Origin: Actinomycetota bacterium
GTDB lineage: Bacteria; Actinomycetota; Thermoleophilia; Solirubrobacterales; Solirubrobacteraceae
Assembly: GCA_005888335.1 (NCBI GenBank)
Contig: VAWY01000008.1
Location: 1-22,307 of the forward strand
Direction: 5' to 3'
Length of the DNA stretch: 22,307 bases
The notes under the pieces are model-generated. The model searched no databases. It had not been told where the DNA came from and saw only the letters and a list, made by a program, of their open reading frames with translations. This document shows, piece by piece, positions 5,640 to 21,873 of this stretch. The stretch's first letter is position 1, and each line of letters begins with the position of its first letter. Position numbers and translations under genes: made by a program.

Positions 5640-5644
5640 CAACC

Positions 5645-7009: not shown

Positions 7010-7017
7010 CGCAGCAC

Positions 7018-7035
7018 ACGACGCATAAGCGTCGT
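7018..7035 (+). terminator. Possible hairpin terminator after the MshEN gene
   Basis: A perfect 7-bp inverted repeat (ACGACGC / GCGTCGT) with an ATAA loop lies nine bases after the stop at 7009. There is no T-run, so if it terminates it is of the stem-only kind suggested for actinobacteria. Its right arm overlaps the first CGTCAC operator unit, so it may instead be part of that site. Confidence 0.3.
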
Positions 7036-7061
7036 CACCGAGACGTCACCGCTCCGTCACC
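7033..7061. promoter_or_regulatory. SARP-type direct repeats, site 1 (three CGTCACC units at 11-bp pitch)
   Basis: CGTCACC occurs at 7033, 7044 and 7055, exactly one helical turn apart; this is the reverse complement of the GGTGACG units found at sites 2 and 3. A fourth, out-of-phase CGTCAT lies at 7072. The array is in the 212-base gap before the BTAD regulator gene, so autoregulation is the simplest reading (inference). Its orientation is opposite to sites 2 and 3. OmpR-fold regulators such as SARP proteins, and PhoP, bind 11-bp direct repeats. Confidence 0.62.
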
Positions 7062-7221
7062 GCCGGTTTGCCGTCATCCGTTGACTCGCACGCCGAACGG
7101 TGCAAGGGTGGATTGCTTCCAACGGCAACGAGGTGGGGACGCGCATTTGGCTTCCATCGTTGCTGCGGCGGGGACCCCGGGGAGAGCTGGGGGAGACTTG
7201 ACCATCCGGGGCGGGGCGTCG

Positions 7222-7914
7222 GTGGAGCTTCGGCTGCTGTGCGGCTTCGACCTGCGCGCGGCGGGGCAACGAATGCGCCTACCGCTCTCCGGCCAGCGCG
7301 TCGTCGCGTTCCTCGCGTTGCACGACCAGCCCGTGCAACGTCTCTACGTGGCGGGCAGCCTGTGGCTTGACGCGCCGGAGGAGCGGGCGAGTGCACGACT
7401 GCGTACGGCGCTCTGGAGGCTGCGACAGCCGCAGTGCTGCATTGTCGAAGCCACGACCACCCACCTCTCGCTGGCACCGGACATCGCAGTCGACGTGCGC
7501 GACGCGGTCGCGGCCGCACGCCGCGCGCTCCGGGTGGGAACCGTGCCGGACGATCCGGAGGTCGAGGAGCTCTGTCTCGCCGGAGAGCTTCTGCCCGACT
7601 GGTACGAGGACTGGGTCCTGATCGAGCGCGAGCGCTTCCGGGTGCTCCGCCTGGAAGCGCTCGAGGCGATCGCAGCCGAGCTCGCAGGCGCGGGCCGCTA
7701 CGCAGCGGCTGCGGAAACGGCACTCGCCGCCGTCGCCGGCGAGCCGCTGCGTGAGAGCGCTCACCGCGTCCTGATCGGGGTGCACATCGCGCAGGGGAAT
7801 TGGTTCGACGCGCTGCGCCAGTACCGCTTCTACCGCGACCTCGTGCGCAAACAGCTCGGGCTCGAACCGTCGCCCGAGATGGAGCAGCTCGTCCAGCCGT
7901 TGCGGCCACGGTGA
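7222..7914 (+). CDS. SARP-family transcriptional regulator with BTAD domain
   Basis: A ~230-residue protein made of an OmpR-like winged helix (residues ~1-90: VELRLLCGFDL, LSGQRVVAFLALH, then ERASARLRTALWRLRQ as recognition region) and a bacterial transcriptional activation domain of TPR-like helices (residues ~95-225), ending with the hallmark GNWFDALRQYRFYRDLVRKQLGLEPSPEM. It has no ATPase or sensor domain, like short SARP activators such as ActII-ORF4. From family knowledge these bind direct repeats spaced 11 bp overlapping -35 regions and recruit RNA polymerase. Such repeats flank this gene on both sides, and the injection-system operon follows. GTG at 7222 is chosen because the domain begins right there. 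A TTG at 7198, or an earlier start, is possible. Confidence 0.86.
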   Translation: MELRLLCGFDLRAAGQRMRLPLSGQRVVAFLALHDQPVQRLYVAGSLWLDAPEERASARLRTALWRLRQPQCCIVEATTTHLSLAPDIAVDVRDAVAAARRALRVGTVPDDPEVEELCLAGELLPDWYEDWVLIERERFRVLRLEALEAIAAELAGAGRYAAAAETALAAVAGEPLRESAHRVLIGVHIAQGNWFDALRQYRFYRDLVRKQLGLEPSPEMEQLVQPLRPR

Positions 7915-7942
7915 CGTCTGCGTGACGGCGCGGGCGCAAGCT
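7911..7942 (+). promoter_or_regulatory. SARP-type direct repeats, site 2, with aligned -10 element
   Basis: GTGACG units begin at 7911 and 7922 (11-bp pitch). The first contains the stop codon of the BTAD gene. Exactly eight bases after the last GTGACGG is CAAGCT (7937-7942), a candidate -10, and six bases later the ATG at 7949. The spacing equals that of known SARP-activated promoters (final repeat 8 bp from the -10). No Shine-Dalgarno site precedes the ATG, consistent with a leaderless transcript. Confidence 0.62.
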
Positions 7943-7948
7943 GCGCCC
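7932..7948. repeat. Perfect inverted repeat abutting the start codon of the small gene
   Basis: GGGCGCA and TGCGCCC with a 3-base AGC loop occupy the 17 bases immediately before the ATG at 7949. It overlaps the candidate -10. It could be a hairpin ending the regulator transcript or a control element; in GC-rich DNA it could also be chance. Confidence 0.4.
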
Positions 7949-8149
7949 ATGGCCGCTTCGAACGCTGCGGAGCGCATCGGCGTCGTTGTCGTGCGCGTGT
8001 GGATCGAGCAGCCGCCCGGCACCGGATTGCGCGCGCGGATCACCGCACAGGAGCTCGGAGACGGAGAGCAGACGTCGCAGGCGGCAAAGAGCATCGACGC
8101 GATCGTCGACAACGTGCGCGCATGGCTCGAGGAGTTCGTCAACCGGTGA
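7949..8149 (+). CDS. Small protein of unknown function in the injection-system control region
   Basis: A 66-residue protein (MAASNAAERIGVVVVRVWIE at the start). It combines a beta-strand-rich N-terminal half (VVVVRVWIEQ, GLRARITAQEL) with a C-terminal helix ending VRAWLEEFVNR, so a compact alpha/beta fold is likely. It sits between the BTAD gene and the DUF4255 gene, with its own SARP-type repeat site upstream and another beginning at its stop. I cannot assign a function. The placement suggests an accessory or regulatory part of the system, co-activated by the BTAD protein. GTG at 7922 is an alternative start, but it lies inside the repeat site. Confidence 0.6.
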   Translation: MAASNAAERIGVVVVRVWIEQPPGTGLRARITAQELGDGEQTSQAAKSIDAIVDNVRAWLEEFVNR

Positions 8150-8188
8150 CGGCGCCGTGACGACGCCGTGACGGCTGCAGTGCACGCT
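8146..8188 (+). promoter_or_regulatory. SARP-type direct repeats, site 3, promoter of the injection-system operon
   Basis: Three near-identical 11-mers stand in tandem: GTGACGGCGCC at 8146, GTGACGACGCC at 8157 and GTGACGGCTGC at 8168. The last GTGACGG ends at 8174; eight bases later comes CACGCT (8183-8188), the same position as CAAGCT in site 2. The ATG of the DUF4255 gene follows eight bases after, without a Shine-Dalgarno site. This predicts a SARP-activated, leaderless promoter driving the whole operon. Confidence 0.7.
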
Positions 8189-8196
8189 CAACGCAC

Positions 8197-8784
8197 ATGG
8201 CCGGCTTCCGCGCGATCGCCGCAGCGGGCAAGAGCATCGAGCGACTGCTGAACACGGGCTTCGACGACGACGAGCCCGTAACCGGCAAGAGCACGAAAGC
8301 CACGCTCGTGCAGAGCAACGCCTTCGACCCCACGTCGGGCGGGCTCACCTTTCCGGCGCTGTCGATCTTCCTGTATCGCGTCGAGGTCAACAGGACGACG
8401 CGGGCGGCATGGTCGGCGGTCGGGTCGCTCGACGGAAGGCCGCACCTGCCCGTCGATCTGCACTACTTGCTCACGGCATGGGCCGACAACGCCGAGCACG
8501 AGCATGCCGTGCTCGGCCGCGCGATGCAGTGCCTCGACGAGTCGCCCATCCTGAGCGGGCCGCTGTTGCAGGCCGCCGGTGAGTGGGCGGCGAACGAGGT
8601 CGTTCAGATCGCGGTCGACGAGCTGGGCCTCGACGCCGTGATGCGGACCTTCGACGCTCTCGAGGCGAGCTACCGGCTCAGCGTCGGATACACGGCACGC
8701 GTCGTCCGCATCGACGGCGCACGGGCGCCGGACCCGGCCGTCACGTCGATCGTCGTCGGCAAGACCCCGACGCCGGTGCCGTGA
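8197..8784 (+). CDS. DUF4255 tail-terminator (Pvc16/Afp16-like) protein
   Basis: A 195-residue protein of the DUF4255 family, the N-terminal domain of Pvc16/Afp16 caps that end the contractile tail and set its length. Family marks are the early helix GKSIERLLNTGFDD, SIFLYRVEVNRTTR, the LPVDLHYLLTAWADNAEHEHAVLGRAMQ block (residues ~88-115, the most typical stretch), and SYRLSVGYTARVVRID near the end. It is the first gene of the operon and directly follows the three 11-bp repeats. The ATG has no Shine-Dalgarno site. The stop overlaps the next gene's GTG (GTGA). Confidence 0.9.
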   Translation: MAGFRAIAAAGKSIERLLNTGFDDDEPVTGKSTKATLVQSNAFDPTSGGLTFPALSIFLYRVEVNRTTRAAWSAVGSLDGRPHLPVDLHYLLTAWADNAEHEHAVLGRAMQCLDESPILSGPLLQAAGEWAANEVVQIAVDELGLDAVMRTFDALEASYRLSVGYTARVVRIDGARAPDPAVTSIVVGKTPTPVP

Positions 8785-9560
8785 CCGTCACGCTGCCCAC
8801 GCGCTACGACGCGGACGTCTACCGTCTCGCGCTCGGGATCGAGCCGATCGACGCGGCCCGCGGCCTGCGGGTCTCGCACGCGCTCGAGATCTCGCTCGAA
8901 GGCAGCGCAGGCGTGCTGGCCGTGCCCCGGCACGCGACCGGGCTGTACGCCGTGATCTATGCGGATGACACAGGCACGCCGCTCGACGTTCGCATCGACG
9001 ACGCCACGCGGCGGTTCGTTCCTCGCCGCCTGCGCGTTCCGATCGCGACGCTTGCGCAGGTGCTCACGGCGGACGACGCTGGAACTCCGGTCCCGGCCGC
9101 GTCGCGTGCACGCCGGCCCTTCCTCTTCCCCGGCGCGGCGTACGACCTTGCCGGCACGGCGACCGCGTTGCGCGGCAGCGTCGTCCGCAGCGGGAAGCCG
9201 ATGCGCTGGGCGCGTGTCGAGGCGCGCGTCGGCGGTCAGGTGATCGGACGCGCGCACGGCGACGACCGCGGCGAGTTCCTGCTCGTCCTGGGCGTCGACA
9301 CCACCAACCTCGGCGACGTCGTCGCGCCGCTCAACGTGTCGGTAACCGTTACCGGCCCGCTGCCTGCCCCGTCACCGCCTCTGCCCGACCCTCTCTGGGA
9401 CCTGCCGCTCGAGGTGCTGCCCGCGGCCGGTGCCCCCGATCCCGTGTCGACCGGGGATGAAGCTCCGGCCGCGTACGTCCCCGGCTCGTCCGTCTCCCGC
9501 ACCGTCGCGCTCACGCCCGGTCGGCTGACGAGCGCGCAGCCTCCCTTCGTCATCCCGTAA
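8781..9560 (+). CDS. Injection-system protein with carboxypeptidase-regulatory-like domain
   Basis: A 259-residue protein starting at GTG inside the preceding stop. Residues ~121-171 (GTATALRGSVVRSGKPMRWA, then VEARVGGQVIGRAHGDDRGE and FLLVLG) match the beta-sandwich carboxypeptidase-regulatory-like fold, with a typical GxV...G.P...A.V......G...TD..G.F pattern. Residues ~1-115 form another beta-rich domain, and the last ~80 are Pro/Ala/Val-rich. It has no signal peptide and no enzyme motif. Placement between the terminator and sheath suggests a structural or assembly role at the tail's distal end, but this is inference. I know of no characterised counterpart in Afp or PVC. The next gene has a good AAGGAG site overlapping this stop. 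Confidence 0.68.
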   Translation: MTVTLPTRYDADVYRLALGIEPIDAARGLRVSHALEISLEGSAGVLAVPRHATGLYAVIYADDTGTPLDVRIDDATRRFVPRRLRVPIATLAQVLTADDAGTPVPAASRARRPFLFPGAAYDLAGTATALRGSVVRSGKPMRWARVEARVGGQVIGRAHGDDRGEFLLVLGVDTTNLGDVVAPLNVSVTVTGPLPAPSPPLPDPLWDLPLEVLPAAGAPDPVSTGDEAPAAYVPGSSVSRTVALTPGRLTSAQPPFVIP

Positions 9561-9571
9561 GGAGCGACGCA

Positions 9572-11443
9572 ATGCCCGAGTATCTCGCCCCTGGTGTCTA
9601 CGTCGAAGAGGTCAGCTTCCGCTCCAAGACCATCGAGGGCGTAGCGACGAGCACGACCGGCTTTGCCGGCATGACGCGAACCGGACCTGTGCAGTATCGC
9701 GACGAGCCGCGCAGCGGTCCGGCGACGAGCGAGCCGCGCCTGATCACGAACTTCGCCGACTTCGAGCGGGTGTACGGCGGTCTGGAGCCGCTCAACGTCG
9801 GCCCGTCGGCCGGCGGGGCGGAGGAGCGCATCTGCTTCATGGCGCACGCCGCGCGTGCGTTCTTCCTCAACGGCGGCCGACGACTGTACGTCTCGCGGGT
9901 CTTCGCACCGCGCGATCCAGGTGGGGGAGCGGCTCTCGACGTCGGCGTCGCATCGCGTGCGGTGTCCGTCGGCGGCACCGCGGCCACCTGGCGTGCGCGC
10001 TGGCCTGGCGCCTTCGGCGACGTGTTCGTCGAGACGCGGGCCGTCCGCAGCAAGAACGTGGCGTACCAGCACCCGACGTTCGGTACCCAGGCGCAGCGTG
10101 CGAAAGCGGGTGCTGTCGTCGAGATCATCACGCCGCCGGCTGCAGTACCGGTGGAGAACGACCCGCTCGTCGGCGGCAACCTCGCCGTCGTATCCGTCGG
10201 TGTCGACGGCAAGCAGACGTTCAATCGTGGCGGCGGCCCGGTTGCGGTGGCTGCAACGGATGTGATCCAGCTGGTCGAGCTGTCGGTGCTCGTGCACGTC
10301 GACGCCGAGCGCGTCGACTCGTACAACGCGCTCGGCGCCGACCCGGCACAGGTGCGCTACATCGGCAAGATCCTCCAGAAGGACGATCCGGAGGACGAGA
10401 ACGCGGTCGTCTGGCTGGAGTGGGATCCGTCCGGCGCAGGCCCCGACGCTCCGGCCGCGCTCATGGCTGCGCTGCAGGGGAATCCGAACGGGCGTCTGAC
10501 CGGCGGTCACGACGGCGACCTCACGATGCCGGACGATCTGATGGGTGAGCCTGCCGCGCCCGACGACGCCACGATCAAGGCGACGGGCCTCGAGGCCCTA
10601 CAGGAGATCGACGACATCGCGATCGTCGCGCTGCCCGACGGGGGCACGTACGCGGACCGGCTGCTGTGCGAGCAGGCGGCCGACCGGCTGATCACGCACG
10701 CGGAGCAGGGCCGCTACCGGATCGCGGTCGTCGACGGCCCGCAGAACAGCTCGATGAACGAGATCCGCGAGTTCCGCGGCAAGTTCGACAGCAAGTACTC
10801 CGCGCTCTACCACCCGTGGATCAGGATCCTCAACCCGCTGGAGCGCGCCGCCGCAGGCGCGCCGCCGGCCCAGCTCACGCTGCCGCCGTCCGGATTCGTC
10901 AGCGGGATCTATGCACGCAGCGATGTCGAGCGCGGCGTCTACAAGGCGCCGGCCAACGAGGTGGTGCGCGGGCTGACGCAGTTCGAGCTCAACATCAACA
11001 AGGGTCGCCAGGACGTCCTCAATCCCGAGGGGATCAACGCGCTGCGGTTCTTCCCGGGCCGCGGCAGCCGCGTGTGGGGCGCACGCACGATGAGCTCGGA
11101 TCCGGAGTGGAAGTACGTGAACGTCCGGCGCCTGTTCATCTTCCTCGAGCACTCGATCGACAAGGCGACGCAGTTCGCGGTGTTCGAGCCGAACAACGAA
11201 CGCCTCTGGGCGATCATGCGCGACACCGTCTCCGACTTCCTGTTCCTGCAGTGGAAGGGAGGCGCGTTGCTCGGCACCAAGCCGGCGGAGGCGTTCTTCG
11301 TTCGCTGCGACCGCACGACGATGACGCAGAACGATCTGGACAACGGGCGGCTGATCGTGCTCATCGGCGTCGCGCCGACGAAGCCGGCGGAGTTCGTGAT
11401 CTTCCGGATCGGCCAGTTCACTGCCGACGCACCCCTGACCTGA
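9572..11443 (+). CDS. Contractile tail sheath protein 1
   Basis: A 623-residue tail sheath protein. APGVYVEEV at residues 6-14 and the ITNFADFERVYGGL segment are the standard N-terminal sheath marks. The conserved C-terminal domain spans ~465-615: FELNINKGRQDVLNPEGINA, FFPGRGSRVWGARTMSSDPEW, VNVRRLFIFLEHSIDKATQF, FEPNNERLW, then FFVRCDRTTMTQNDLDNGRL and the final IGVAPTKPAEFVIFRI strand that links neighbouring subunits. Residues ~130-330 are a variable surface domain. AAGGAG seven bases before the ATG gives strong translation, as expected for the most abundant part. Sheath contraction drives the inner tube through the target membrane. Confidence 0.95.
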   Translation: MPEYLAPGVYVEEVSFRSKTIEGVATSTTGFAGMTRTGPVQYRDEPRSGPATSEPRLITNFADFERVYGGLEPLNVGPSAGGAEERICFMAHAARAFFLNGGRRLYVSRVFAPRDPGGGAALDVGVASRAVSVGGTAATWRARWPGAFGDVFVETRAVRSKNVAYQHPTFGTQAQRAKAGAVVEIITPPAAVPVENDPLVGGNLAVVSVGVDGKQTFNRGGGPVAVAATDVIQLVELSVLVHVDAERVDSYNALGADPAQVRYIGKILQKDDPEDENAVVWLEWDPSGAGPDAPAALMAALQGNPNGRLTGGHDGDLTMPDDLMGEPAAPDDATIKATGLEALQEIDDIAIVALPDGGTYADRLLCEQAADRLITHAEQGRYRIAVVDGPQNSSMNEIREFRGKFDSKYSALYHPWIRILNPLERAAAGAPPAQLTLPPSGFVSGIYARSDVERGVYKAPANEVVRGLTQFELNINKGRQDVLNPEGINALRFFPGRGSRVWGARTMSSDPEWKYVNVRRLFIFLEHSIDKATQFAVFEPNNERLWAIMRDTVSDFLFLQWKGGALLGTKPAEAFFVRCDRTTMTQNDLDNGRLIVLIGVAPTKPAEFVIFRIGQFTADAPLT

Positions 11444-11456
11444 GGCGGAGGAGGCC

Positions 11457-11918
11457 ATGCCAACGTTTCGCGAGAACCCGTATCACGCCTTCAACTTCAT
11501 CGTCTCGCTCGGCGGAAGTCAGGGCGACGGCGGCGAGGGAACGATCATCGGGGGCTTCTCCGATGTGAGCGGGCTCGGCGTCGACGTCAACTACGCCGAG
11601 TACCGCAACGGGAACGAGCGGGTGAACACGGTTCGCAAGCTCCCGAACACGCACAAGTTCGACGACGTGACGCTCAAGCGAGGGCTCGTCGGATCGACCG
11701 ACCTGTTCGAGTGGCTCGCCACGGTGCGCGACGGGACGACCGATGCGCGCGACGTCTCCATCACGCTCATGGACGAGGCGCGGGATCCCGTCGCCACGTG
11801 GCGGCTGCATCGTGCGCAGCCGAAGAAATGGACCGGCCCGACCCTCGCGGCGAAGGGCGGTTCCGACGTCGCGATGGAGGAGCTCCACCTCGTCCACGAG
11901 GGAATCTCGTACTCGTAG
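11457..11918 (+). CDS. Tail tube protein 1 (gp19-like)
   Basis: A 153-residue inner-tube protein of the T4 gp19/Pvc1 family. NPYHAFNFIVSLGG at the start, FSDVSGLGVDVNYAEYRNGN, then TLKRGLVGSTDLFEWLATV (residues ~72-90) and the final SDVAMEELHLVHEGISY are the usual marks in the usual order, and the length is typical. It stacks as hexamer rings within the sheath. GGAGGAGG lies just before the ATG. The sheath-then-tube order is standard. The stop is one base from the GTG of the second sheath. Confidence 0.95.
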   Translation: MPTFRENPYHAFNFIVSLGGSQGDGGEGTIIGGFSDVSGLGVDVNYAEYRNGNERVNTVRKLPNTHKFDDVTLKRGLVGSTDLFEWLATVRDGTTDARDVSITLMDEARDPVATWRLHRAQPKKWTGPTLAAKGGSDVAMEELHLVHEGISYS

Positions 11919-11919
11919 C

Positions 11920-13894
11920 GTGAGCGGCGTCTCTCCTCTCGCGCTGGGAGCGCCGGGCGTTTACGAGCGTCCGCCGACGACGGTGCGCGCGCTCACGAAC
12001 GTGCGCATGGACGTGTGCGCGTTCGTGGGCGTCGCTCCGCGCGGGCCCGCCCGAGTGCCCGTCGCCGGTGAGGACCTCACGCCGGACTCGTCGTGCGTCG
12101 CACCGGCACGCCCGCGCAGGCGCTCGACGGCGGTAGCGGTGGAGAGCTGGGACGAGTACGTCCGGCTCTACGGCGCGTTCGAAGGCGCAGGGCTGCTTCC
12201 CTTCGCGGTGGCATCGTTCTTCGACCAGGGCGGCCGGCGCGCGTACGTCGTGCGCGTAGTGCACGACTTCGGCGGGCCGGATGACGACACGGGTGCGGCC
12301 GCCGGGGAGCTCGCGCCCCTGGCAGTGGCCGGCGGCGTGCCCGTGACGTTGCGCGCCCGCAACGAAGGCTCCTGGGGCAACGGCCTCACGGCTGAGCTCG
12401 GATACTCGACTCGCCCGATTGTTGCGGAGCCGCTCGACACCATGCGGCTCGCGCTTGCGACCGACACCGATCTGACCGCGGGCACCGTGCTGCGGCTGCA
12501 GCTCGGTGGAGGTATCGCGCAGGTGCGCGTGGTCGCGTCGCTCGTCTCCGAGGGTCTCGCCGATAGGCCGGCGCGGCGCATCGTCGCGACTCTGGCGGAA
12601 CCGGCATCCGCGCCGCCGGTGTCCGTCGAGGTGGTGGAAGCCACGTTGACGCTCGACGACGGCGCGGGCCGCCTGGAGCGATTCGAGCGGCTCGGGCTCT
12701 CTCCGGCGCATCCGCGCTTCGTCGCCGACGTCCTCTGCGCGGAGTCCGAGCTCGTCTATCCGGACTGGGCCTGGGTCGGGCGGGACATCCTGCCGGCCGA
12801 CGAGACGCTGCCGCCTGCGCGTGCGCTCGCTTTCGCCGGCGGCGAGGACCGGGCCCACCTCGTCACGCCCGACGACTTCTTCGACAACGCGTGGACGTTC
12901 GGCGACGAGGATCCCGGCAGCGGCGTGCACGCGCTCGTCGAGCTGGCGGACCTCTCGCTCGTCGTCGTGCCGGATCTCTATTCGCCGTCCGCGCTCGAGC
13001 CGGCGGAGTCGGTCGCGGACGTCGTGTCGCTCGCAGGGCCGACGTTCGAGCGCTGCGAAGACCCCGCTCCGGTCCCGGGGCAGGAGGTGCCGCAGGACCC
13101 GCTCGACGGGCTCGCGCTCGACCCTCGCCTGCCGTCCGACCGGCGGCGAATCGTCGAGCTGCAGCAACGCCTGCACGACCTCGCCGGCCTCCTGCGCTCG
13201 TGGATCGTGCTGCTCGACGTGCCCCCGGGTCTCAGCCAGCGGCAGGTGCTCGAGTGGCGCGCGCAGTTCGATTCCGGCTTCGCGGCCGCGTACCACCCCT
13301 GGCTCCGTGTGGCGCCCCTCGGCGACCGCCGGCGCGACCTCGTCGACCTCAATCCGTCGGCGACCGCGGCGGGGATCATCGCGCGCCGGGAGCTCCGCTT
13401 CGGCGTGCCGTTCGGCCCGTCGAACGAGCTCGCGCTCCAGGTCGTCGACGTGACCGAGCGCGTCTCGCCGGCGCGGCACGACGAGCTGCATCCCCAGGGC
13501 GTGAACGTCTACCTGCACGAGCGCGACGGCATCCGTCTCACGGCGGCCCGGACGCTCTCGCGCGACCCGGCGTGGCGGCAGCTCAGCGTGCGACGGCTGG
13601 TGACGATGCTGCACCGCGCACTCGAGCAGCAGATGCAGTGGGCCGTCTTCGAGCCGAACACGCCGTCGCTGCGGGCGGACATCCGCCACCTGCTGGAGAA
13701 CTTCCTGCGCCGGCTCGCGCGTGCGAATGCGTTCGCGGGCGCGACCGATGACCAGTCGTTCTTCGTGCGTTGCGACGATTGGGCAGTTGATCGTGGAGGT
13801 CGGCGTGGCGCCGGCCGAGCCGCTCGAGTTCATCGTGCTGCGGATCGAGCGCGACGGCGACGGGACGCTCACCGTGGAGACGACCGGTGGCTGA
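11920..13894 (+). CDS. Contractile tail sheath protein 2, frameshifted near the C-terminus
   Basis: A second, diverged sheath protein starting at GTG 11920 (SPLALGAPGVYERPPTTVRAL). PFAVASFFDQGGRRAYVVRV, LNPSATAAGIIARRELRFGV, LHPQGVNVYLHERDGIRLTA, LSRDPAWRQLSVRRLV and WAVFEPNTPSLRADIRHLLE follow the sheath pattern up to FFVRCDD (13762-13779). There the frame breaks: GQLIVEVGVAPAEPLEFIVL, the expected last strand, continues in the next frame from 13781 to a TGA at 13892-13894. About ten codons found here in sheath 1 are also missing, so a deletion of roughly 29 bases is likely. Without correction the original frame runs on to 14112 with arginine-rich nonsense. An 8-base overlap of the restored stop with the next start supports the original end. 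Real mutation or assembly error cannot be told apart. Confidence 0.82.
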
Positions 13895-14432
13895 CGAGAG
13901 CCCGCCGCTCGTCCGCACCTTCAACTTCCGCGTGCGGCTCTTTCGCAGCGCGCCGGGCGACGCCGAGGGCGCCGCAGACGCGCCGCGGGCGCGCGACGAC
14001 CTGCCGAGCAGCGGCGACCCGCTCGGCGACGGCGGCTTTCAGGAGTGTTCCGGGCTCGGCGTCGAGATGGACGTGCAGGAGTACCTCGAAGGCGGGCGCA
14101 ACGACGGCGTGATCAAGCGTGTCGGCCGGGCGAAGGTGCAGCCGCTCGTACTGAAGCGGGGCATGTTCTTCGAGCGCGGCGAGCTTGCGAACGACGACCT
14201 GTGGCGCTGGCTCGAGGACGTCGTCTCCGGCGTGCGGCCGGTCGCGCGCTACGACGGGATCGTCGAGGTGCTCGACGACACCGGCGAAGACGCCGTCGCC
14301 CGCTGGGTGTTCGACCGTGGGCTGCCGATGAAGATCGCCGGCCCGCTGCTGAACGCCAGAACCGGCGAGATCGCGATCGAGGAGCTGCACATCGCGCACG
14401 AAGGTCTCCGGCTCGCGAGGGGAACGCCATGA
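13887..14432 (+). CDS. Tail tube protein 2 (Pvc5/Afp5-like)
   Basis: A 181-residue tube-family protein: TFNFRVRLFRSA at the start, FQECSGLGVEMDVQEYLEGG, LVLKRGMFFERGELANDDLW and a C-terminal TGEIAIEELHIAHEGLRL matching the same elements as tube 1. It is longer by an N-terminal acidic insert at residues ~20-45. In characterised particles such a second tube protein forms the initiator ring between hub and tube, which fits the order here just before the Pvc7-like gene. It starts at GTG within the restored end of sheath 2 and ends in an ATGA overlap. Confidence 0.9.
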   Translation: MADESPPLVRTFNFRVRLFRSAPGDAEGAADAPRARDDLPSSGDPLGDGGFQECSGLGVEMDVQEYLEGGRNDGVIKRVGRAKVQPLVLKRGMFFERGELANDDLWRWLEDVVSGVRPVARYDGIVEVLDDTGEDAVARWVFDRGLPMKIAGPLLNARTGEIAIEELHIAHEGLRLARGTP

Positions 14433-15754
14433 CGCTCGCGAAGGCCACGCTCGTCGCGATCTCCGCCGACGCTCACCCGACCGAGCAGGGGACGCCGATC
14501 GAGGTGCAGTTCAACCCGACGTCGATGCGGCTCGCCATGACGAACTCGATCGACGTCGGCAGCGCGCGCGGCCGCGAGGCGGCACGGCACCTCGAGACGA
14601 GCGCGACGACGCTCAGCCTCGACCTCGTGTTCGACACGGCTGACCAGGCGAGCGCCGACGGGGAGGCGGTCAACGTGCGCGACCTCTCGAAGGGAGTCTC
14701 CCGTTTCGTGCTCCCGGAGGTGCAGGGCAGCAGGAAGCAGGCGCCGCCGCGCGTGCGATTCGCCTGGGGCACCTTCGTCTTCGACGGGGTGATGAGCCAG
14801 CTCACCGAGGACATCGACCTCTTCTCCGAGACGGGCGTGCCGCTGCGCTCGAAGGTCTCGATTGCGGTCAAGGAGCAGAACCCGGAGTTCATCGCGGGCC
14901 GGCTCGGCCCGGCCGCTGCGACCGGGGCCGGTGCCTCGCCCCCGGGCGGCGGCGGCGCGGGCCCGGGCTCCGCCGGGAGCGGCGGGGACTCGACGGGCCT
15001 CGCCCTCGGCGGTGAGAGCGCCGCCGACTTCGCCGCGCGCATGGGCCTCGACCCTGCAGCCTGGCGCGGCCTCGCCGGCGGTCTCTCCTCGACGCTGTCG
15101 CTCTCCGCCGGCCTCGAGATCGACTTCTCTGCCGGCCTGTCGGTCTCGGCCGGCATCGGCACGAGCGGTGGCGCCGAGGCGGGCGCCGCGACCTCCCCGG
15201 AGGCCGCCTTCGGGCTCGCGCCCGCAGCGGGCGGAGGCGGCGGGGGCGGCACGCCGGCCCAGGCCGGCTTCGCGCTCGCCGCGGGCGGAGGCGTGCGCGC
15301 CGCGGTCGAGTCCGTCGAGATCGCCAAGGCGTCGGACGCCGCCGCGCAGACGCGGGCGGCGTTCGCGGCCTCGCCCTCGCCCGTGCCGGGAGCCGCCGTC
15401 TCGCCGCGGCCGGCGGCGCCGGACCAGCCACATCCGCGGCTCGCAACGCAAGGGCTCCCGGCGCCCGGCGCGCAGGCGCCGCCGGCGCCCGCGCGGCCGC
15501 TCGCCGATCCCCGCGCGACGTCGTTCGGCTTCGGCATCCCGCTGCGCCCGCGCATCGAGGGTGCCGCGGCGGAACGCGGCGCAGCGACGAGCGGCTGGAT
15601 CAACGTGCGCGCGCGCGAGCGCGACCCGATCGCGGTTCCGCTCGTTCGCGATCCCACGGCCCCGCCGTGGACGGCTCTGCCTGCGGTCGCGCCGTCGGGG
15701 GCGCACACCGACGGACCCGGCTGCAGTTGCGGCTGCGGAGGCGGTTGCCGGTGA
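14429..15754 (+). CDS. Pvc7/Afp7-like tube-LysM protein with low-complexity region and Cys-rich tail
   Basis: A 441-residue protein. Residues 1-150 form the conserved domain of Afp7/Pvc7-type baseplate proteins (PIEVQFNPTSMRL at ~23-35; PPRVRFAWGTFVFDGVMSQL and TEDIDLFSETGVPLRSKVSI at ~104-145). A LysM-like part follows at ~195-240 (ESAADFAARMGLDPAAWRGL, then SLSAGLEIDF). In known members the protein ends about here. This one adds ~200 residues of Gly/Ala/Pro-rich sequence and a terminal tail CSCGCGGGC. The extension has very high GC but an intact frame. Family role: joins tube initiator to hub. The tail may bind a metal or form disulfides (inference). ATGA start, GTGA end overlap. Confidence 0.85.
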   Translation: MTLAKATLVAISADAHPTEQGTPIEVQFNPTSMRLAMTNSIDVGSARGREAARHLETSATTLSLDLVFDTADQASADGEAVNVRDLSKGVSRFVLPEVQGSRKQAPPRVRFAWGTFVFDGVMSQLTEDIDLFSETGVPLRSKVSIAVKEQNPEFIAGRLGPAAATGAGASPPGGGGAGPGSAGSGGDSTGLALGGESAADFAARMGLDPAAWRGLAGGLSSTLSLSAGLEIDFSAGLSVSAGIGTSGGAEAGAATSPEAAFGLAPAAGGGGGGGTPAQAGFALAAGGGVRAAVESVEIAKASDAAAQTRAAFAASPSPVPGAAVSPRPAAPDQPHPRLATQGLPAPGAQAPPAPARPLADPRATSFGFGIPLRPRIEGAAAERGAATSGWINVRARERDPIAVPLVRDPTAPPWTALPAVAPSGAHTDGPGCSCGCGGGCR

Positions 15755-15948
15755 GTGCGGTGCGCATCGACGAGCTGACGTCCGAGGTCGTGACCGAAGA
15801 CGCGCAGACGGCCGGGGCGACGCAGCAGGCGGCGACTCGCGGCGATTCGGCCTCGACCGTCTGGCAGGAGCAGGCGCGCTATCGCGCGCTCCGGGAGCGC
15901 GTGCAACGCGACGCGCTGCGCACCCGTGCGGAGGCGTACAGTGACTGA
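15751..15948 (+). CDS. Small injection-system protein, possible Pvc6/DUF5908-like
   Basis: A 65-residue protein starting at the GTG inside the preceding TGA. The N-terminal SAVRIDELTSEVV resembles the IEIRELxI opening of DUF5908 (Afp6/Pvc6-like) proteins, but is too short to be decisive. The rest is a charged helix (WQEQARYRALRERVQRDALR). Tiny proteins near the Pvc7 gene are common in these clusters, often without known role. Eight-base overlap (GTGACTGA) with the next gene shows coupling. Confidence 0.62.
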   Translation: MSAVRIDELTSEVVTEDAQTAGATQQAATRGDSASTVWQEQARYRALRERVQRDALRTRAEAYSD

Positions 15949-17020
15949 TCCTCTCTTCGCGTCGGTCGCTCCCGTCTTCAAGGTGGACGGCTCGACGAAG
16001 GGCCAGCTCGCGCGGGATCTCCTGCGGCTCGACGTCGAGGAGACGACCGCCGGCCTGAAGTCGCTGCAGGCGACGTTCCTCGGCGTGGGAGCGAACGACA
16101 CCGGCGAGGTCGACGACTCGCAGTACCTCGACGGCAGCATTCTCGACTTCGGCAAGGAGCTCGAGGTCTCGATCGGGCCCACGGGCAACGAACGCACGAT
16201 CTTCAAGGGCACGATCTCGGCGCTCGAGGCGGTCCACGGAGAGAGCCAGGCCGCGAACGTCACCGTGTTCGCCGAGGACAAGCTGATGCAGCTTCGCATG
16301 ACGCGGCGCGCAAAGACGTACCTGAACATGAGCGACGCCGACATCGCGTCCGCACTTGCGGGCGAGCACGGCCTCCAGCCGGACACCGCCGCCGACGGGC
16401 CGACATACGACGTCGTACAGCAATGGAACCAGAGCGATCTCGCGTTCCTGCGCGAACGAGCCGCGCGCGTCGCCGCCGAGGTCTGGTGCGACGACACGAA
16501 GCTCTACTTCAAGACGCGCCCGAATCGCACGGGCACCACGATCACGCTCGTCAACGGCAACACCCTCATCGCCGTCGAGCTACGCGCGGATCTGGCGCAC
16601 CAGCGCACCAAGGTGAAGGTGACCGGTTACGACGCGACGCAGCGCGACGCGATCGACGAGGAGTCCGGCAACGAAGCGCTGCAGGCCGAGATCTCCGGCG
16701 GCCGCACGGGGCCGAGCGTGCTCGAGTCGGCGCTCGGCGAGCGCGTGTCGCAACGCGTCCGCGACGTCCCGATCGCTGCCACCGAAGCCCGTGCATTTGC
16801 AAAGGGCGAGATGCTGCATCGCGGCCGTGCGTTCGTCACCGCCGTCGGTACGACGAGCGGCACGCCCGACCTCGTCGTCGGCAGCCGCCTGACGCTGCAG
16901 GCTGTCGGACGGCCGTTCGAAGGCGACGGGTACTACGTCACCCGCGTCGCCCACGCGTACGACCTGCGGAGCGGCCACCGGACGATGTTCGAGGCCGAGC
17001 GGGCGACGGTGAACGCATGA
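15941..17020 (+). CDS. gpD-like tail hub protein (N-terminal VgrG part)
   Basis: A 359-residue phage late control D/T4 gp27-type hub protein, equal to the N-terminal half of VgrG or Pvc8. Typical pieces: DLLRLDVEETTAGLKSLQAT (residues ~25-45), IFKGTISALEAVHGESQAAN, VTVFAEDKLMQLRMTRRAKT and the family hallmark VVQQWNQSDLAFLRERAARV (residues ~160-180). It ends with GDGYYVTRVAHAYDLRSGHR. It forms the trimeric base on which the needle sits. GTG 15941 has GGAGG six bases upstream. ATGA overlap with the needle gene shows that spike and hub are split into two coupled genes here instead of one Pvc8 polypeptide. Confidence 0.9.
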   Translation: MTDPLFASVAPVFKVDGSTKGQLARDLLRLDVEETTAGLKSLQATFLGVGANDTGEVDDSQYLDGSILDFGKELEVSIGPTGNERTIFKGTISALEAVHGESQAANVTVFAEDKLMQLRMTRRAKTYLNMSDADIASALAGEHGLQPDTAADGPTYDVVQQWNQSDLAFLRERAARVAAEVWCDDTKLYFKTRPNRTGTTITLVNGNTLIAVELRADLAHQRTKVKVTGYDATQRDAIDEESGNEALQAEISGGRTGPSVLESALGERVSQRVRDVPIAATEARAFAKGEMLHRGRAFVTAVGTTSGTPDLVVGSRLTLQAVGRPFEGDGYYVTRVAHAYDLRSGHRTMFEAERATVNA

Positions 17021-17670
17021 CCCCCCGCCCGCCCGACGGCGACGCTGCGCGCTATTTCGGCCTGTACCCGGCGATCGTCACGGACATCGTCGACCCGAAG
17101 TCGCTCGGTCGCATCCAGGTGAAGCTGCCGATGCTCGGCGACGACGTGAGGGCGTGGGCGACGCTGATCACTCCCTATGCCGATGACGACCAGGGTCTCG
17201 AGATCCTGCCCTCGGTCGACACGCAGGTCGTCGTCGCGTTCGAGGCAGGCGACCTCAGCCGGCCGTACATCGTCGGTGCGTGCTGGAACGGCCGCGAGTC
17301 GCTCCCGGAGGCGCCGGCTGCCCCGAACAACATTCGGCTGCTCAAGACGCGATCGGGAAGCAAGCTCGAGTTCGACGACACCGACGGCGCCGCGAAGGTG
17401 ACGCTCTCGATGCAGAGCGGCCATCTGCTCGTGCTCGACGACGCGGTGCAGCAGGTGCAGCTGAAGCACGCGAACGGCTGCATGATCACGATGAACGCCG
17501 CCGGGCAGGTCTCGATCACCGCGAACGCGACGGTGGAGATCACGGCTGCGGCGCTGAACGTCCACGCGCCGACGGCCACGTTCGACGGGCTGATCAACTG
17601 CACGACCGTCATCTGCAGCGCCGGCGTCGTCTCGCCGTCGTACACCCCAGGGGCGGGGAACATCTGGTGA
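17017..17670 (+). CDS. gp5/VgrG-like spike (baseplate V) protein
   Basis: A 217-residue protein. Residues ~12-105 are the OB-fold of gp5/baseplate assembly protein V (FGLYPAIVTDIVDPKSLGRI, VKLPMLGDDVRAWATLITPY, VDTQVVVAFEAGDLSRPYIV, GACWNG). The rest is a repetitive beta-helix: KLEFDDTDGAAKVTLSMQSG, GCMITMNAAGQVSITANATV, EITAAALNVHAPTATFDG. It would trimerise to a needle that pierces the target. No lysozyme domain is present. No separate PAAR tip protein was seen in the window. Overlaps: ATGA at the start, GTGA at the end. Confidence 0.92.
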   Translation: MTPRPPDGDAARYFGLYPAIVTDIVDPKSLGRIQVKLPMLGDDVRAWATLITPYADDDQGLEILPSVDTQVVVAFEAGDLSRPYIVGACWNGRESLPEAPAAPNNIRLLKTRSGSKLEFDDTDGAAKVTLSMQSGHLLVLDDAVQQVQLKHANGCMITMNAAGQVSITANATVEITAAALNVHAPTATFDGLINCTTVICSAGVVSPSYTPGAGNIW

Positions 17671-19313
17671 GCGGCCAGCATCCCTGGCTGCTGGTCGCAC
17701 CGTGGTACCGCTGGGCGCGCCAGGGCGGGCCGCCGCGTGAGACGCGGCCCGTGCTGCAGAAGTACGAGACGTCGGACCTCGTCAACGCCTTCCTCAAGGA
17801 TCCGCAGCACTCGCTGAAATTCACCGACGAGGATCGTGTCGCAGTGCTGCAGTCGCCGCTCGCGCCGTCGGGCTTGCCGAAGCGGCTCTCGAGCGCCGTG
17901 CTCGTCCGCTCCGGCACCCGGAAGCTCTTCCTCGACGCGCACAAGCGGTTCTACCTAATCGTCTGCGAGCTGCACTGCGACGTCGCCGGCCTCCCAAACG
18001 CGAATCCCGCCGAGGTCTGCGAGACCGGCTTCGTCGTCCGCCGTCGCGCGTGCAACGTGCCGCAGCCGATCCGGCGGGAGACGGCGGCGCGGCTGCAACG
18101 GATCGCGGCGCGCCGTGCGCGCCTCGCGCAGGTCGACCGGATCGAGCCGGCGACGCGGATCGCCGTCCTGCGGCGTCCCGCCGCCTGTGAGGCGGTCGCA
18201 CGTCAGCGGGTCGAGCTGACGCGCGCGCTCGTCGACGAGCGCGTGCAGCTGAAGGAGTTCCTGCGCGCGTCCGGCGCGGTCGACCTCGTCGAAGGCTGGA
18301 TTCCGTCGTCGCTCGACAAGGTCGGCTCCTGGCAGGCGGTGCCGGAGGACCCGCAAGCCGTCTCCGAGTCGATCTTCCCGCTCTTGCGGCTGATCCCCGA
18401 TCCGCGCGCGGAGCACCACGCCGCCGCCGGCCGCGCCATGTACTACGGCCTGGTCGCGACCGCGAGCGCCGACACGGACGCGCACGGCCACGCGCGCTTC
18501 GACGACGCGAGCTGCTACGAGATCCGCTGCTTCGTCCGCCGCCATGACCCTCGCTGCCCGCGCACCGGCGAGCGCAACGACTGCAAGGGCGAGCTCGTCT
18601 GGAGCGAGCCGACCGAGATCTACCGGATCGCGTCGCACTTCGACCTCGACGGGACGAGCAACCGGCCCGTGACGATCCAGCTGCCGGACATCCCGGCGCT
18701 CACGGCGCAGGCCGCAGCGCTGCCGGTGAAGGGCCCGCAGCGGGCGAAGGCCGCGCCCGTGAAGATGGTCACGCCTGCCGGCTCGAAGCTGAACATCCAG
18801 GTCTCCGGCGGGCTGCCGACGGGCGGAACGCTCGGCGGCCCCGGGTTCTGCCATCTCTCGATTCCGTTGATCACGATCGTCGCGACGTTCGTGTTCCAGC
18901 TCTTCCTGCCGATCGTCGTGCTCATCTTCGGGCTCTGGGCGCTGCTCAAGCTGCGCTTCTGCATCCCGCCCGAGATCTCGATCAGCGCCGGTGTGACCGC
19001 GGAGCTGCACGGCGTCACGGACGTCGATCTCCAGCTCCCGTCGGTCGAGTTGTCGGTAGCCATCGGCACGATCAAGACCGGTCTCAACGCCTCGGGGACG
19101 GACACCACGAAGCACGGCGTCGGCGACAGGATGCTCGGGCCGCCGCCCGTGTTCGGCGCCGATGCGCTCGCCGACTTCGCCGACTCGGTGAGCGTGAACC
19201 TCGGCGCGGCGCCGGCGGCGGACGACCCGCCCGAAGGCCCGCCCCTCGCCGACGCGCCGTGGGGTGAAGGCGACCCCAGCCTCGAGTGGGAGGAGGAGGT
19301 GGCCGTCGCATGA
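17667..19313 (+). CDS. Injection-system protein with strong membrane segment, candidate membrane anchor
   Basis: A 548-residue protein starting at GTG inside the spike gene's stop. N-terminal SGQHPWLLVAPWYRWARQGG, PPRETRPVLQKYETSDLVNA; residues ~100-130 hold several Cys (VCELHCDVA, EVCETGF, RRACNVPQPI) and ~290-315 four more (CYEIRCFVRRHDPRCPR, NDCKGELVW). Residues ~396-431 are strongly hydrophobic (LSIPLITIVATFVFQLFLPI, VVLIFGLWALLKLRF), long enough for one long or two short membrane helices. The rest is Gly/Asp/Pro-rich and acidic at the C-terminus. No signal peptide. It lies between spike and gp25, where Afp and PVC have no such gene. Its idea resembles CisA, the membrane protein of Streptomyces CIS (from memory; homology not tested). 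Confidence 0.75.
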   Translation: MSGQHPWLLVAPWYRWARQGGPPRETRPVLQKYETSDLVNAFLKDPQHSLKFTDEDRVAVLQSPLAPSGLPKRLSSAVLVRSGTRKLFLDAHKRFYLIVCELHCDVAGLPNANPAEVCETGFVVRRRACNVPQPIRRETAARLQRIAARRARLAQVDRIEPATRIAVLRRPAACEAVARQRVELTRALVDERVQLKEFLRASGAVDLVEGWIPSSLDKVGSWQAVPEDPQAVSESIFPLLRLIPDPRAEHHAAAGRAMYYGLVATASADTDAHGHARFDDASCYEIRCFVRRHDPRCPRTGERNDCKGELVWSEPTEIYRIASHFDLDGTSNRPVTIQLPDIPALTAQAAALPVKGPQRAKAAPVKMVTPAGSKLNIQVSGGLPTGGTLGGPGFCHLSIPLITIVATFVFQLFLPIVVLIFGLWALLKLRFCIPPEISISAGVTAELHGVTDVDLQLPSVELSVAIGTIKTGLNASGTDTTKHGVGDRMLGPPPVFGADALADFADSVSVNLGAAPAADDPPEGPPLADAPWGEGDPSLEWEEEVAVA

Positions 19314-19699
19314 CGAGCCTCGCCCACCTCGGCAGGGGCTGGACGTTCCCGGTGGCCGTGGATCCGCTTGTGCACGGCCTGCCCTACGTCGACGGCCCCG
19401 ACAAGGTGCGGCAGTCGATCCGGATCATCCTCGACACGGACCCGGGCGAGCGCGTGATGCGCCCGACGTTCGGCTGCGGCCTGCGCCGCTATCTCGCGCA
19501 GCCGAACACGGTCTCGACGCGCGCGCAGATCAAGCGCGACGTGGAGCAGGGGCTCGCCGCCTGGGAGCCGCGCATCAAGACGACTCGGATCGACGTCATC
19601 GCCGGCGACGACCCGTCACTCGTCGAGATCGCGATCTCGTACGTGCACCTGCGCACGGGCCGCCCGGACAACCTCGTCTACCCGTTCTCCCTGGAGTAG
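19310..19699 (+). CDS. gp25-like baseplate wedge protein
   Basis: A 129-residue wedge protein of the T4 gp25/Pvc9 family. GRGWTFPVAVDP at the start, VRQSIRIILDTDPGERVMRP with the hallmark TFGCGLRRYL (residues ~52-61), and EIAISYVHLRTGRPDNLVYP at the end. In contractile tails this protein ties the baseplate to the first sheath ring and starts sheath assembly. The ATG at 19310 overlaps the preceding stop and has a GGAGGAGG stretch about 10 bases upstream, so the more upstream in-frame ATG at 19286 is not used. Confidence 0.94.
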   Translation: MTSLAHLGRGWTFPVAVDPLVHGLPYVDGPDKVRQSIRIILDTDPGERVMRPTFGCGLRRYLAQPNTVSTRAQIKRDVEQGLAAWEPRIKTTRIDVIAGDDPSLVEIAISYVHLRTGRPDNLVYPFSLE

Positions 19700-19701
19700 C
19701 G

Positions 19702-21873
19702 GTGCCGCTGCCGACGCCGATCCTCGACGACCGCTCGTACCAGCAGCTGCGCGACGAGCTGGTCCGCCGCATCCCGGTCTACGCGCCGGAGTGGACGGAT
19801 CACAACGCGAGTGACCCGGGGATCGCGCTGCTCGAGCTGTTCGCGTTTCTCGGCGAGAACCTGCTGTTTCGCTTCAACCAGATTCCGGAGTCGACGTATC
19901 TCGAGTTCTTGCGCCTCCTCGACATCCCGCTGCGCGCCGCGCAGCCGGCGAAAGCGCTCGTCGCACTCGAGACGAAGGTGCCCGCGGGCGAGCTCGTGGA
20001 GCTCGCGACGCCGTTGCGCGCGGGCTCGGTCGCGTTCGAGACCAAGACGGAAGTGCACGCCTGGCCGGTGACGCTCGTCGGGGTCGCGCGGGCCGCGAGC
20101 GCGCTGCCGGACAACGACGAGGCACAGGCGTTCGCGGCGCGTGCGCTCGACGCGCTCGAGCTCGCAGACGACGAGGAGGCCGTCTTCTACGTCAACAAGC
20201 TCGTGCCGGCCGATCCGGCGGCACCCGACGCGCTGCCCGTCGACTTCCGGCAGGCCGTCGACGGGATCGTCTGGGCCGCCGTCGTCGGGCCCGACAAGGA
20301 CGCGACCGCGAAGGCGGCGCAGCTCGCGTTGATGCGCGAGGGGATCCTCAACGTCGGCTTCGCACCGGACGAGCCGGTCGCGAACGCGAGCGAGGTCGAC
20401 GCGTGCCTCGGCTTCGGCGCGACGCGCCGCAGCCCGCCGCTCACGTGGCAGATCTCCACCGGCCGCGTCGACCGGGACACTCCGGTCTACAAGACGCTGC
20501 AGCTCGTCGGCGACACGACGCGCGGGCTCTCCCAGCAGGGAGTCGTCCGCCTGCAGCTGCCGCGCGAGCTCACGAACATGGGTGACTTCCCGCCCCCGGC
20601 GCTCGACCTCGCCGGCACCGGTGACCTCCCTCCGGAGCTCGAGGACGCCGAAGCGGCTGCGAAGGTGCTCTTCTGGGTGCGCGCCTTCCGCGAAGACGGG
20701 AGCCGCGTCGGCTCCGTGACGTGGATCGGAGCGAACGCAGCCGAGACGGAGCAGACCGCGCGTGCACTGCCGGAGTTCCTCGGCACCGGCACCGGCGACG
20801 CGGACCAGCGCTATCCGCTCGTGCACAGCCCGGTGATCGACGGCACGCTCGTCGTTGAGGTCGAAGAGCAGCCGGACACGTGGCAGTCCTGGACTGCCGT
20901 GGAGGACTTCCTCGCGAGCGGCGAGGACGACCGCGTCTACACGCTCGACGCCGAGGCGGGCGTGGTCAAGTTCGGCAACGGCGTACGCGGGCGCGCTCCG
21001 CAGATCGGCCAGCGCATCCGCGCAACCGGCTACCGCTACGGCGGCGGCGCGGTCGGAAACGTCGCAGCTGCCGCGATCTCGAAGCTCGAAGGACCCGCGA
21101 CCGCGAAGGTGAGCAACCCGCTCGCCGCCGCAGGCGGCGCGGACGGTGAGACGATCGCTGCGGCACTCGAGCGGGTGCCGGGCGAGCTGCGGCGGCGCGA
21201 CCGCGCCGTCACGGCAGATGACTTTCGCGAGCTCGCGCTCGCAACGCCGGGAGCAGGTGTCGGTCGGGCGGAATGCCTGCCGCGCTTCCATCCGCGCACG
21301 CGGATCGAGGACGCCGCCGGTGTCGTCACCGTCGTCGTCTGGCCACGGGAGGACCGCAAGCATCCGAACGCTCCGATCCCGGACCGGACGCTGCTGCGGG
21401 CGGTGTGCGAATGGCTCGACGCGCGACGCCTCGTCACCACCGAGCTCTACGTGATCCCGCCGACGTACCGGAAGGTCTCCGTTGCCGTCGGCGTCGCTGT
21501 CAAACCGGGCTTCGGCGTCGAGGCCGTTCGCCGCTGGGCGGAGCTGGCGATCCGCCAGTACCTCGCGCCGCTGCCGCCGTTCGGTCCCGACGGCGGCGGC
21601 TGGCCGCTCGGTCGCCGCGTGCACGGCCCCGAGCTCGAGGCGGCGGCGTTGCAGGTCGACGGCGTCGAGTTCCTGCAGGGTCTACGCGTCGCGTCGCTCG
21701 CTGCGGACGGAGCCACGTGGGTGGAAGGCTCGGTCGCGCTGGCGGTCGACGAGGTGGTGGAGCTGACCGAGATCAGCGTCGTCGACGGGCCTCCGCTCGA
21801 TCCGGGCGCCGCACCGGCGCCGCCGCCCGCGAAAAAGCCGGTCCCGGTCCCGACGATCAAGGATCAATGCTGA
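19702..21873 (+). CDS. Baseplate J-like protein (putative baseplate assembly protein)
   Basis: A 723-residue baseplate J/gp6-type protein (Pvc11-like). N-terminal LDDRSYQQLRDELVRRIPVY and EWTDHNASDPGIALLELFAF, LGENLLFRFNQIPESTYLEF (residues ~8-70) are the usual marks. YTLDAEAGVVKFGNGVRGRA, then IRATGYRYGGGAVGNVAA (~415-455) and RDRAVTADDFRELALATPG (~502-520) form the conserved centre, and a C-terminal YVIPPTYRKVSVAVGVAVKP region follows. It polymerises into the wedge ring around the hub. The GTG at 19702 comes two bases after the gp25 stop. The stop overlaps the next ATG (TGATG). Confidence 0.92.
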   Translation: MPLPTPILDDRSYQQLRDELVRRIPVYAPEWTDHNASDPGIALLELFAFLGENLLFRFNQIPESTYLEFLRLLDIPLRAAQPAKALVALETKVPAGELVELATPLRAGSVAFETKTEVHAWPVTLVGVARAASALPDNDEAQAFAARALDALELADDEEAVFYVNKLVPADPAAPDALPVDFRQAVDGIVWAAVVGPDKDATAKAAQLALMREGILNVGFAPDEPVANASEVDACLGFGATRRSPPLTWQISTGRVDRDTPVYKTLQLVGDTTRGLSQQGVVRLQLPRELTNMGDFPPPALDLAGTGDLPPELEDAEAAAKVLFWVRAFREDGSRVGSVTWIGANAAETEQTARALPEFLGTGTGDADQRYPLVHSPVIDGTLVVEVEEQPDTWQSWTAVEDFLASGEDDRVYTLDAEAGVVKFGNGVRGRAPQIGQRIRATGYRYGGGAVGNVAAAAISKLEGPATAKVSNPLAAAGGADGETIAAALERVPGELRRRDRAVTADDFRELALATPGAGVGRAECLPRFHPRTRIEDAAGVVTVVVWPREDRKHPNAPIPDRTLLRAVCEWLDARRLVTTELYVIPPTYRKVSVAVGVAVKPGFGVEAVRRWAELAIRQYLAPLPPFGPDGGGWPLGRRVHGPELEAAALQVDGVEFLQGLRVASLAADGATWVEGSVALAVDEVVELTEISVVDGPPLDPGAAPAPPPAKKPVPVPTIKDQC

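Follow-up and report, generated by a model that had tools for sequence, protein, structure and literature searches.

GTGACG repeat arrays as probable operators of a small SARP-type regulator at an actinobacterial contractile injection locus

Promoters controlled by SARP-family activators are described as carrying direct repeats separated by 11 or 22 bp, with the 3′ repeat placed 8 bp from the −10 element (PMC10936776). For AfsR, the afs box covers positions −40 to −19, the −10 of afsS is CACTGT and its −35 is poor (PMC10936776), and residues T88 and R92 of the regulator are reported to contact bases. Little is understood of how the contractile injection systems of actinobacteria are turned on, and in the portions of the literature available to us BTAD genes have so far been noted as neighbours or putative regulators. 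Geller et al. (2021, PMC8213781) list BTAD as a shell domain of extracellular contractile injection system (eCIS) loci and depict it as a putative regulator, and a 2026 review repeats the shell-domain finding (PMC12961389); in S. clavuligerus a SARP gene is linked to phage-tail genes by co-occurrence and neighbourhood (PMC13102240), and the eCIS promoters of S. coelicolor are developmentally timed and bldA-linked (PMC10020575). Here we describe a 22,307-nt stretch of an Actinomycetota bacterium of the Solirubrobacteraceae (assembly GCA_005888335.1, contig VAWY01000008.1; hereafter the window), in which a small SARP-type regulator gene is followed by a gene for a 66-residue protein, by a DUF4255 gene and by the rest of a contractile injection cluster (Table 1). 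By Pfam matches, sheath, tube and baseplate genes stand together with DUF4255, as in an eCIS locus. It is quite probable that arrays of GTGACG repeats in this region are operators of the SARP, driving leaderless promoters of the small gene and of DUF4255. The locus is best read as a small-SARP module, probably autoregulated, that was recruited to the contractile injection system.

Two forward arrays lie immediately ahead of the small gene and of DUF4255. In both, GTGACG units recur at exactly 11-bp pitch (two and three units, respectively), the last GTGACGG is followed after 8 bp by CAAGCT or CACGCT, and an ATG stands 6 or 8 bases further on (7949 and 8197), with none of five Shine-Dalgarno-like strings 5–16 nt upstream. 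All of this agrees with the original prediction, which had been made from the letters of the window. The 11-bp repeat spacing and the 8 bp between the 3′ repeat and an xAxxxT hexamer at both forward sites also follow the SARP rule of PMC10936776, which supports the label of SARP-type promoters given to them. If transcripts start at the ATG, the units lie at −38 and −27 for the small gene and at −40 and −29 for DUF4255 (units 8157 and 8168). The first units of both arrays extend over TGA stop codons, that of the SARP gene in array 1 (7912–7914) and that of the small gene in array 2 (8147–8149). The original prediction described the elements of both array sites correctly and overlooked a third, minus-strand array of three units (7033–7060), which lacks the 8-bp spacing to such a hexamer. 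A sigma-70-type scan of 6950–8260 found neither a promoter nor a terminator.

Repeats of this kind could conceivably be chance or functionless coding-sequence repeats, arising for example from GTGA stop/start overlaps in GC-rich DNA. The position of the first units over stop codons fits that view, as does the frequency of GTGACG itself, which is not enriched in the window (34 occurrences vs. 29.1 expected). The pairing of units does not fit: five exact 11-bp pairs occur (three on the plus and two on the minus strand), whereas 400 order-3 Markov sequences had 0.0175 on average and never more than 1. The observed number is nearly 300-fold over this null, and the best hexamer of any kind in those sequences reached at most three such pairs. 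This bears out the earlier claim that the layout is hard to explain by chance. Every exact pair of the 22.3-kb window falls inside a 1.1-kb stretch around the BTAD gene, where together they make up the three arrays.

The original prediction had named a lack of conservation upstream of orthologous operons as a result that would refute it. A GTGAC-N6-GTGAC pair starting 38–40 bp upstream of the DUF4255 start codon is kept at 7 of 45 genome-contig loci, namely in a metagenome-assembled genome (MAG) labelled Acidobacteria (L016), Nonomuraea (L020), Geodermatophilus (L028 and L029), Terrabacter (L032), Amycolatopsis (L039) and Pseudonocardia (L043). Six of the ten DUF4255 loci with actinobacterial titles have the pair, and the other four carry diverged units at the same spacing, degenerate in an Acidimicrobiia MAG (L001) and with a GAC core in Micromonospora (L005) and Streptomyces (L006 and L025). 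No such pair occurs at that place in the remaining 34 loci.

The promoter layout was compared over 20 sites, comprising the window's two, eleven DUF4255 loci, a Geodermatophilaceae DUF4255 locus (L097) and six small-gene sites that were chosen because an array precedes them. The pair begins 38–40 bp upstream of the start codon at 15 of these, with exactly 8 bp between the proximal heptad and the −10-like hexamer in 14 of the 15 (9 bp in L029); a further four sites have diverged units at the same spacing. An xAxxxT hexamer ending 6–8 nt upstream of the start codon is found at all 20 sites (at one, L117, probably by coincidence), compared with 41 of 358 background genes. None of the five Shine-Dalgarno-like strings is present at 18 sites, and the other two (L032 and L043) have one that overlaps the −10. 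Because the distance between the −10 and the start codon is fixed across sites, a leaderless start of the small-gene and DUF4255 transcripts is likely. Such mRNAs are frequent among these bacteria; in S. avermitilis they make up 22.2% and show a preference for AUG (PMC8780764). The 20 sites do not include two distant members of the window's DUF4255 subfamily: in L070 the array precedes a small-family gene that lies some 0.37 kb ahead of DUF4255, and in L099 there is no array in the 62 bp upstream of DUF4255.

Linkage between arrays and SARP genes was assessed in 396 Actinomycetota genomes, drawn evenly and with a mean size of 3.1 Mb. Arrays were defined by the strict pattern GTGACG-N5-GTGACG-N9-12-ANNNT and the SARP subfamily by profile A2 at E 1e-45. 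Because no more than 7 SARP and 15 small-protein candidates were scored per genome, the counts of both are minimum values. The strict pattern gave 102 matches in 69 genomes, compared with 12 for a reversed control (summed by eye). Together with the conservation of the start-codon distance across genera, this already contradicts the chance reading, which we regard as extremely unlikely. A2-type SARPs gave at least 26 matches in 23 genomes, and the array is present in 17 of those 23 genomes vs. 52 of the 373 without such a SARP (Fisher p 9e-10 if genomes are taken as independent, which they are not, G039/G024 and G308/G278 looking like close pairs). A strict array lies within 400 bp of 10 of the 26 SARP genes, against roughly 0.003 expected under random placement, and a relaxed array lies within 500 bp of 14. 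Ten of the 42 arrays listed for G001–G009 stand within 200 bp of an A2-type SARP gene (one place being listed twice), and in Nonomuraea G003, whose genome measures 13.1 Mb, all four pattern matches are confined to 61 kb on a single 285-kb contig.

The regulator itself was compared with Pfam models and with AfsR. Pfam identifies a BTAD domain above cut-off (PF03704, 3.6e-18) and gives no match for an N-terminal OmpR-type winged-helix domain; residues 50–234 align with the AfsR chain of 8hvr (1.4e-4), recognition helix included. In that alignment, assuming a chain numbering offset of 20, T70 and R74 of the window SARP are the counterparts of AfsR T88 and R92, and both are invariant in the 14 aligned sequences of profile A2, window included. 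Among the SARP relatives listed, one at 58% identity is labelled Gaiellaceae. In the Streptomyces loci L006 and L025, where an oppositely oriented SARP gene is found upstream of DUF4255, the position of AfsR R92 is occupied by Q and the operator has diverged to a GAC core. A search for further Streptomyces loci found the gene in 1 of 111 genomes, G010 itself, and since the Streptomyces evidence is therefore a single clade, covariation of operator and recognition residue is only suggestive. The diverged Micromonospora locus has no SARP in the locus DNA examined.

As far as they are described in the available text of PMC10936776 and PMC10972967, the AfsR and antibiotic-cluster SARP promoters resemble those of the window in their 11-bp repeats, the 8 bp to a weak −10 and the −40 to −19 box, and AfsR is likewise a BTAD regulator whose T88/R92 equivalents are kept here. 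They differ in the repeat, which is CGTT(T/C)ATCG for AfsR and GTGACG in the window, and in the target, which here is a contractile injection cluster with a small gene between it and the regulator. A start codon at fixed distance, implying leaderless mRNA, also sets the window apart. With the eCIS loci of Geller et al. (2021; PMC8213781) the putative BTAD regulator is shared; no operator, promoter or companion protein is given in the available part of that paper. The operator, the leaderless layout, the small family and the three-part cassette considered below were not found named in the literature searched, which consisted mostly of titles and the beginnings of abstracts and covered few subscription journals. 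What appears to be new is thus a set of SARP promoters with another operator sequence, a new target class and a companion protein. A searchable operator with a fixed promoter layout would make the injection-system regulon readable from genomes, and the SARP family would gain targets besides antibiotic clusters, with SARP control tied to leaderless mRNAs.

Several observations weigh against operation of these arrays by the SARP at leaderless promoters. One of the 20 sites, L117, misfits, its array lying 60 bp upstream, and eight of the 20 have a GTG start codon, contrary to a simple leaderless picture. The reverse array has no xAxxxT 6–11 nt past its last heptad on the minus strand. The expectation of an array at all DUF4255 genes was rejected, since none of 33 PF14065 loci in the 396 genomes, mostly of another subfamily, has it directly upstream. 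No relaxed array was found within 500 bp of 12 of the 26 SARP genes, and the 52 array-bearing genomes without an A2-type SARP at E 1e-45 belong here as well. Of 46 SARP-like rows taken from the loci, 40 have R at the R74 position and 42 have S or T at the T70 position. Finally, three array-bearing DUF4255 loci (L016, L039 and L043) have no SARP gene in the locus DNA examined. This last result would be expected if the arrays were SARP operators worked by another SARP or by paralogues in trans, the neighbouring SARP being a target and not the activator; arrays at SARP genes themselves, and the 2 to 5 similar SARPs in nine of the ten array-bearing genomes searched, point the same way. However, the array directly follows the SARP gene in the window, L020, L032, G039 and G024, and we consider regulation in trans unlikely.

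Activation by the neighbouring SARP must also be set against ownership of the arrays by a different regulator of the OmpR type that uses direct repeats spaced by 5 nt, MtrA in particular, with the SARP gene as a mere neighbour. The Streptomyces MtrA site, [GT]T[GA]ACC-N5-GT[GT]ACN, likewise consists of two short direct repeats with a 5-nt separator, the same pitch and a similar half-site (PMC5650626). Its consensus is loose, and the window arrays depart from it at one base, the sixth, so that the first half-site ends in ACG instead of ACC. MtrA relatives were found in 40 of 40 genomes at a loose threshold, and the MtrA equivalog above cut-off in 4 of 10 array-bearing SARP genomes vs. 0 of 30 array-free ones, which alone would favour MtrA. 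In nine further array-free genomes, chosen for large size, the equivalog was nevertheless present above cut-off in all nine; MtrA without arrays is therefore common, and the first contrast presumably reflects the groups sampled. Co-occurrence of arrays with MtrA was rejected on the combined counts, 4 of 10 for array-bearing SARP genomes and 9 of 39 for array-free ones. Moreover, six of the ten array-bearing SARP genomes fall below the MtrA cut-off of 300 bits, three of the six reaching 277–284. In the available text of PMC5650626, MtrA sites take variable promoter positions, overlapping the −10 (bldD) or lying at and above the −35 (whiI), with no constant 8-bp distance to the −10, and the regulation is developmental. 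The main argument remains that arrays adjoin SARP genes far above chance, and ownership by MtrA or a similar regulator is in our view very unlikely.

We propose that two SARP protomers would occupy adjacent 11-bp repeats next to each other, over about −40 to −19. There they may compensate for a poor −35 element and make contact with RNA polymerase and sigma region 4. Transcription from the CANGCT-type −10, 8 bp downstream, would begin at the start codon or no more than about 2 nt away from it, so that the small companion protein and DUF4255 would both be made from leaderless mRNAs. Geometry, conservation and co-localisation with SARP genes are what suggest binding, activation and the transcript start, as well as autoregulation, positive or negative.

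The third array bears on the last of these points. It has no obvious promoter of the forward-site type. Because no minus-strand gene is called between 5492 and 7033, and xAxxxT is missing at the usual distance, an action on the SARP gene itself is more likely for the reverse array. Downstream of this array stands a TTGACT-17-AAGGGT pair that is absent from the results of the promoter scan. Other SARP genes also have arrays upstream, in forward orientation in L001, L028, L085, L087, L089, L090, L032, L127 and L128, and in the reverse orientation seen in the window in G017, G047, G215 and G004:C52, that of G047 facing a divergent short predicted gene. Most simply, the reverse array of the window would be an autoregulatory site.

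Another feature of the locus is the 66-residue protein, which has three database relatives. It has no NCBIfam match, and as a longer open reading frame (ORF; 7922–8149) it has no Pfam match. Members of the small family are about 66–77 residues long (window 7949–8149, L140 2699–2920, L141 2054–2275, L001 6035–6259). A family profile found 17 distinct places (E 2.2e-11 or better) in loci that had mostly been chosen for SARPs or arrays, and at 15 of these places a SARP gene lies no more than 450 nt away. Across the 396 genomes, profile A3 gave at least 15 matches in 13 genomes, 12 of which have an A2-type SARP; 11 of the 15 matches lie within 110 bp of such a SARP, by distances read off. The profile already contained two of the 15 matches, G103, which is among the 11, and G310:C134. 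Seen from the regulator, a small-family gene adjoins 11 of the 26 A2-type SARP genes. The window order of SARP, array, small gene, array and next gene is repeated in G039 and G024, which look closely related, and L001 has the order SARP, small gene, DUF4255. In G039 the gene after the second array (L140 2928–4001) encodes a Mn-catalase by Pfam, and its counterpart in G024 (L141 2283–3358) shares the N-terminus. A structural model of the small protein, strand-strand-strand-helix, is of low confidence (pLDDT 65, pTM 0.44). Its linkage suggests a role in SARP regulation, and in any case a small protein family travelling with SARP regulators is brought to light.

The idea of a regulon restricted to eCIS was rejected, as in the family of G004 the DUF4255 type occurs in 4 of 112 genomes and the pattern in 78 of 112. 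A SARP gene is present in 11 of 20 hit-rich regions, which were chosen for their richness. Pfam was used to scan 20 proteins, 5 of which had no match; the genes after arrays that Table 1 names by Pfam begin 42–198 bp past an array. Since arrays precede Mn-catalase, phospholipase, protease and SARP genes too, the GTGACG array looks like a general operator of this SARP subfamily, with the injection system as one target among others. More tentatively, it is possible that a three-part cassette exists, made up of a small SARP, the GTGACG operator and a dedicated feedback partner of about 66–77 residues (anti-activator or co-activator), the last being translated, in the window and in several relatives, from a leaderless mRNA under SARP control. 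Such a cassette would have been plugged into unrelated targets across Actinomycetota, including contractile injection systems, Mn-catalase, signalling genes and secreted or effector-like enzymes.

Table 1. Features of the window, followed by genes that lie after arrays at other loci
Feature	Position or locus	Strand	Remarks
Array 1	7911..7927	+	Two GTGACG units, 7911–7916 and 7922–7927; begins 38 bp upstream of small-gene ATG
−10-like CAAGCT	7937..7942	+	8 bp past GTGACGG 7922–7928; 6 nt ahead of ATG 7949
Array 2	8146..8173	+	Three GTGACG units, 8146–8151, 8157–8162 and 8168–8173; last two begin 40 and 29 bp upstream of DUF4255 ATG
−10-like CACGCT	8183..8188	+	8 bp past GTGACGG 8168–8174; 8 nt ahead of ATG 8197
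Array 3	7033..7060	−	Three exact GTGACG units, 11-bp pitch; between gene ending 7009 and BTAD gene, upstream of the latter
Small SARP-type regulator, proposed activator	7198..7914	+	238 aa if start is TTG 7198 (start uncertain); putative DNA-binding region, and BTAD
66-aa protein, SARP-associated small family	7949..8149	+	Core RVW[IL]E...G[LF]RAR[IL]...V..WL..F; predicted leaderless
DUF4255 / Pvc16_N, first contractile injection gene	8197..8784	+	Pfam Pvc16_N 1.6e-32; predicted leaderless
Rest of contractile injection cluster	9572..21873	+	Pfam; bounds are longest ORFs
Sheath	9572–11443	+	Pfam
Tube	11457–11918	+	Pfam
Second sheath	11743–14112	+	Pfam
CIS_tube	14045–15754	+	Pfam
Hub	15926–17020	+	Pfam
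Base V	16423–17670	+	Pfam
Baseplate J	19264–21873	+	Pfam
Sheath proteins after arrays	L090, L103, L104		Pfam
Mn-catalase after array	L140		Pfam
Tle1-like phospholipase after array	L107		Pfam
Patatin after array	L102		Pfam
M43 and S8 peptidases after arrays	L100, L101, L103		Pfam
Tyrosinase after array	L104		Pfam
eCIS_core/Het-C protein after array	L154		Pfam; beside oppositely oriented sheath gene
C-x-x-(L/K)-GI-x-AQAAYN proteins	L087 12339–13625, L089 12859–11612, L105 9704–10834		Two scanned, no Pfam match

Two further observations concern genes near arrays at other loci. In L144 (G047:C99), ten relaxed array matches, two of which overlap, are spread over about 8.3 kb (5463–13794) around one SARP gene, and some of them precede signalling-type genes, one with a histidine-kinase-like domain. 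In Nonomuraea, Amycolatopsis and a Geodermatophilaceae genome, arrays are followed by genes for proteins of about 375–430 aa that have the motif C-x-x-(L/K)-GI-x-AQAAYN in common.

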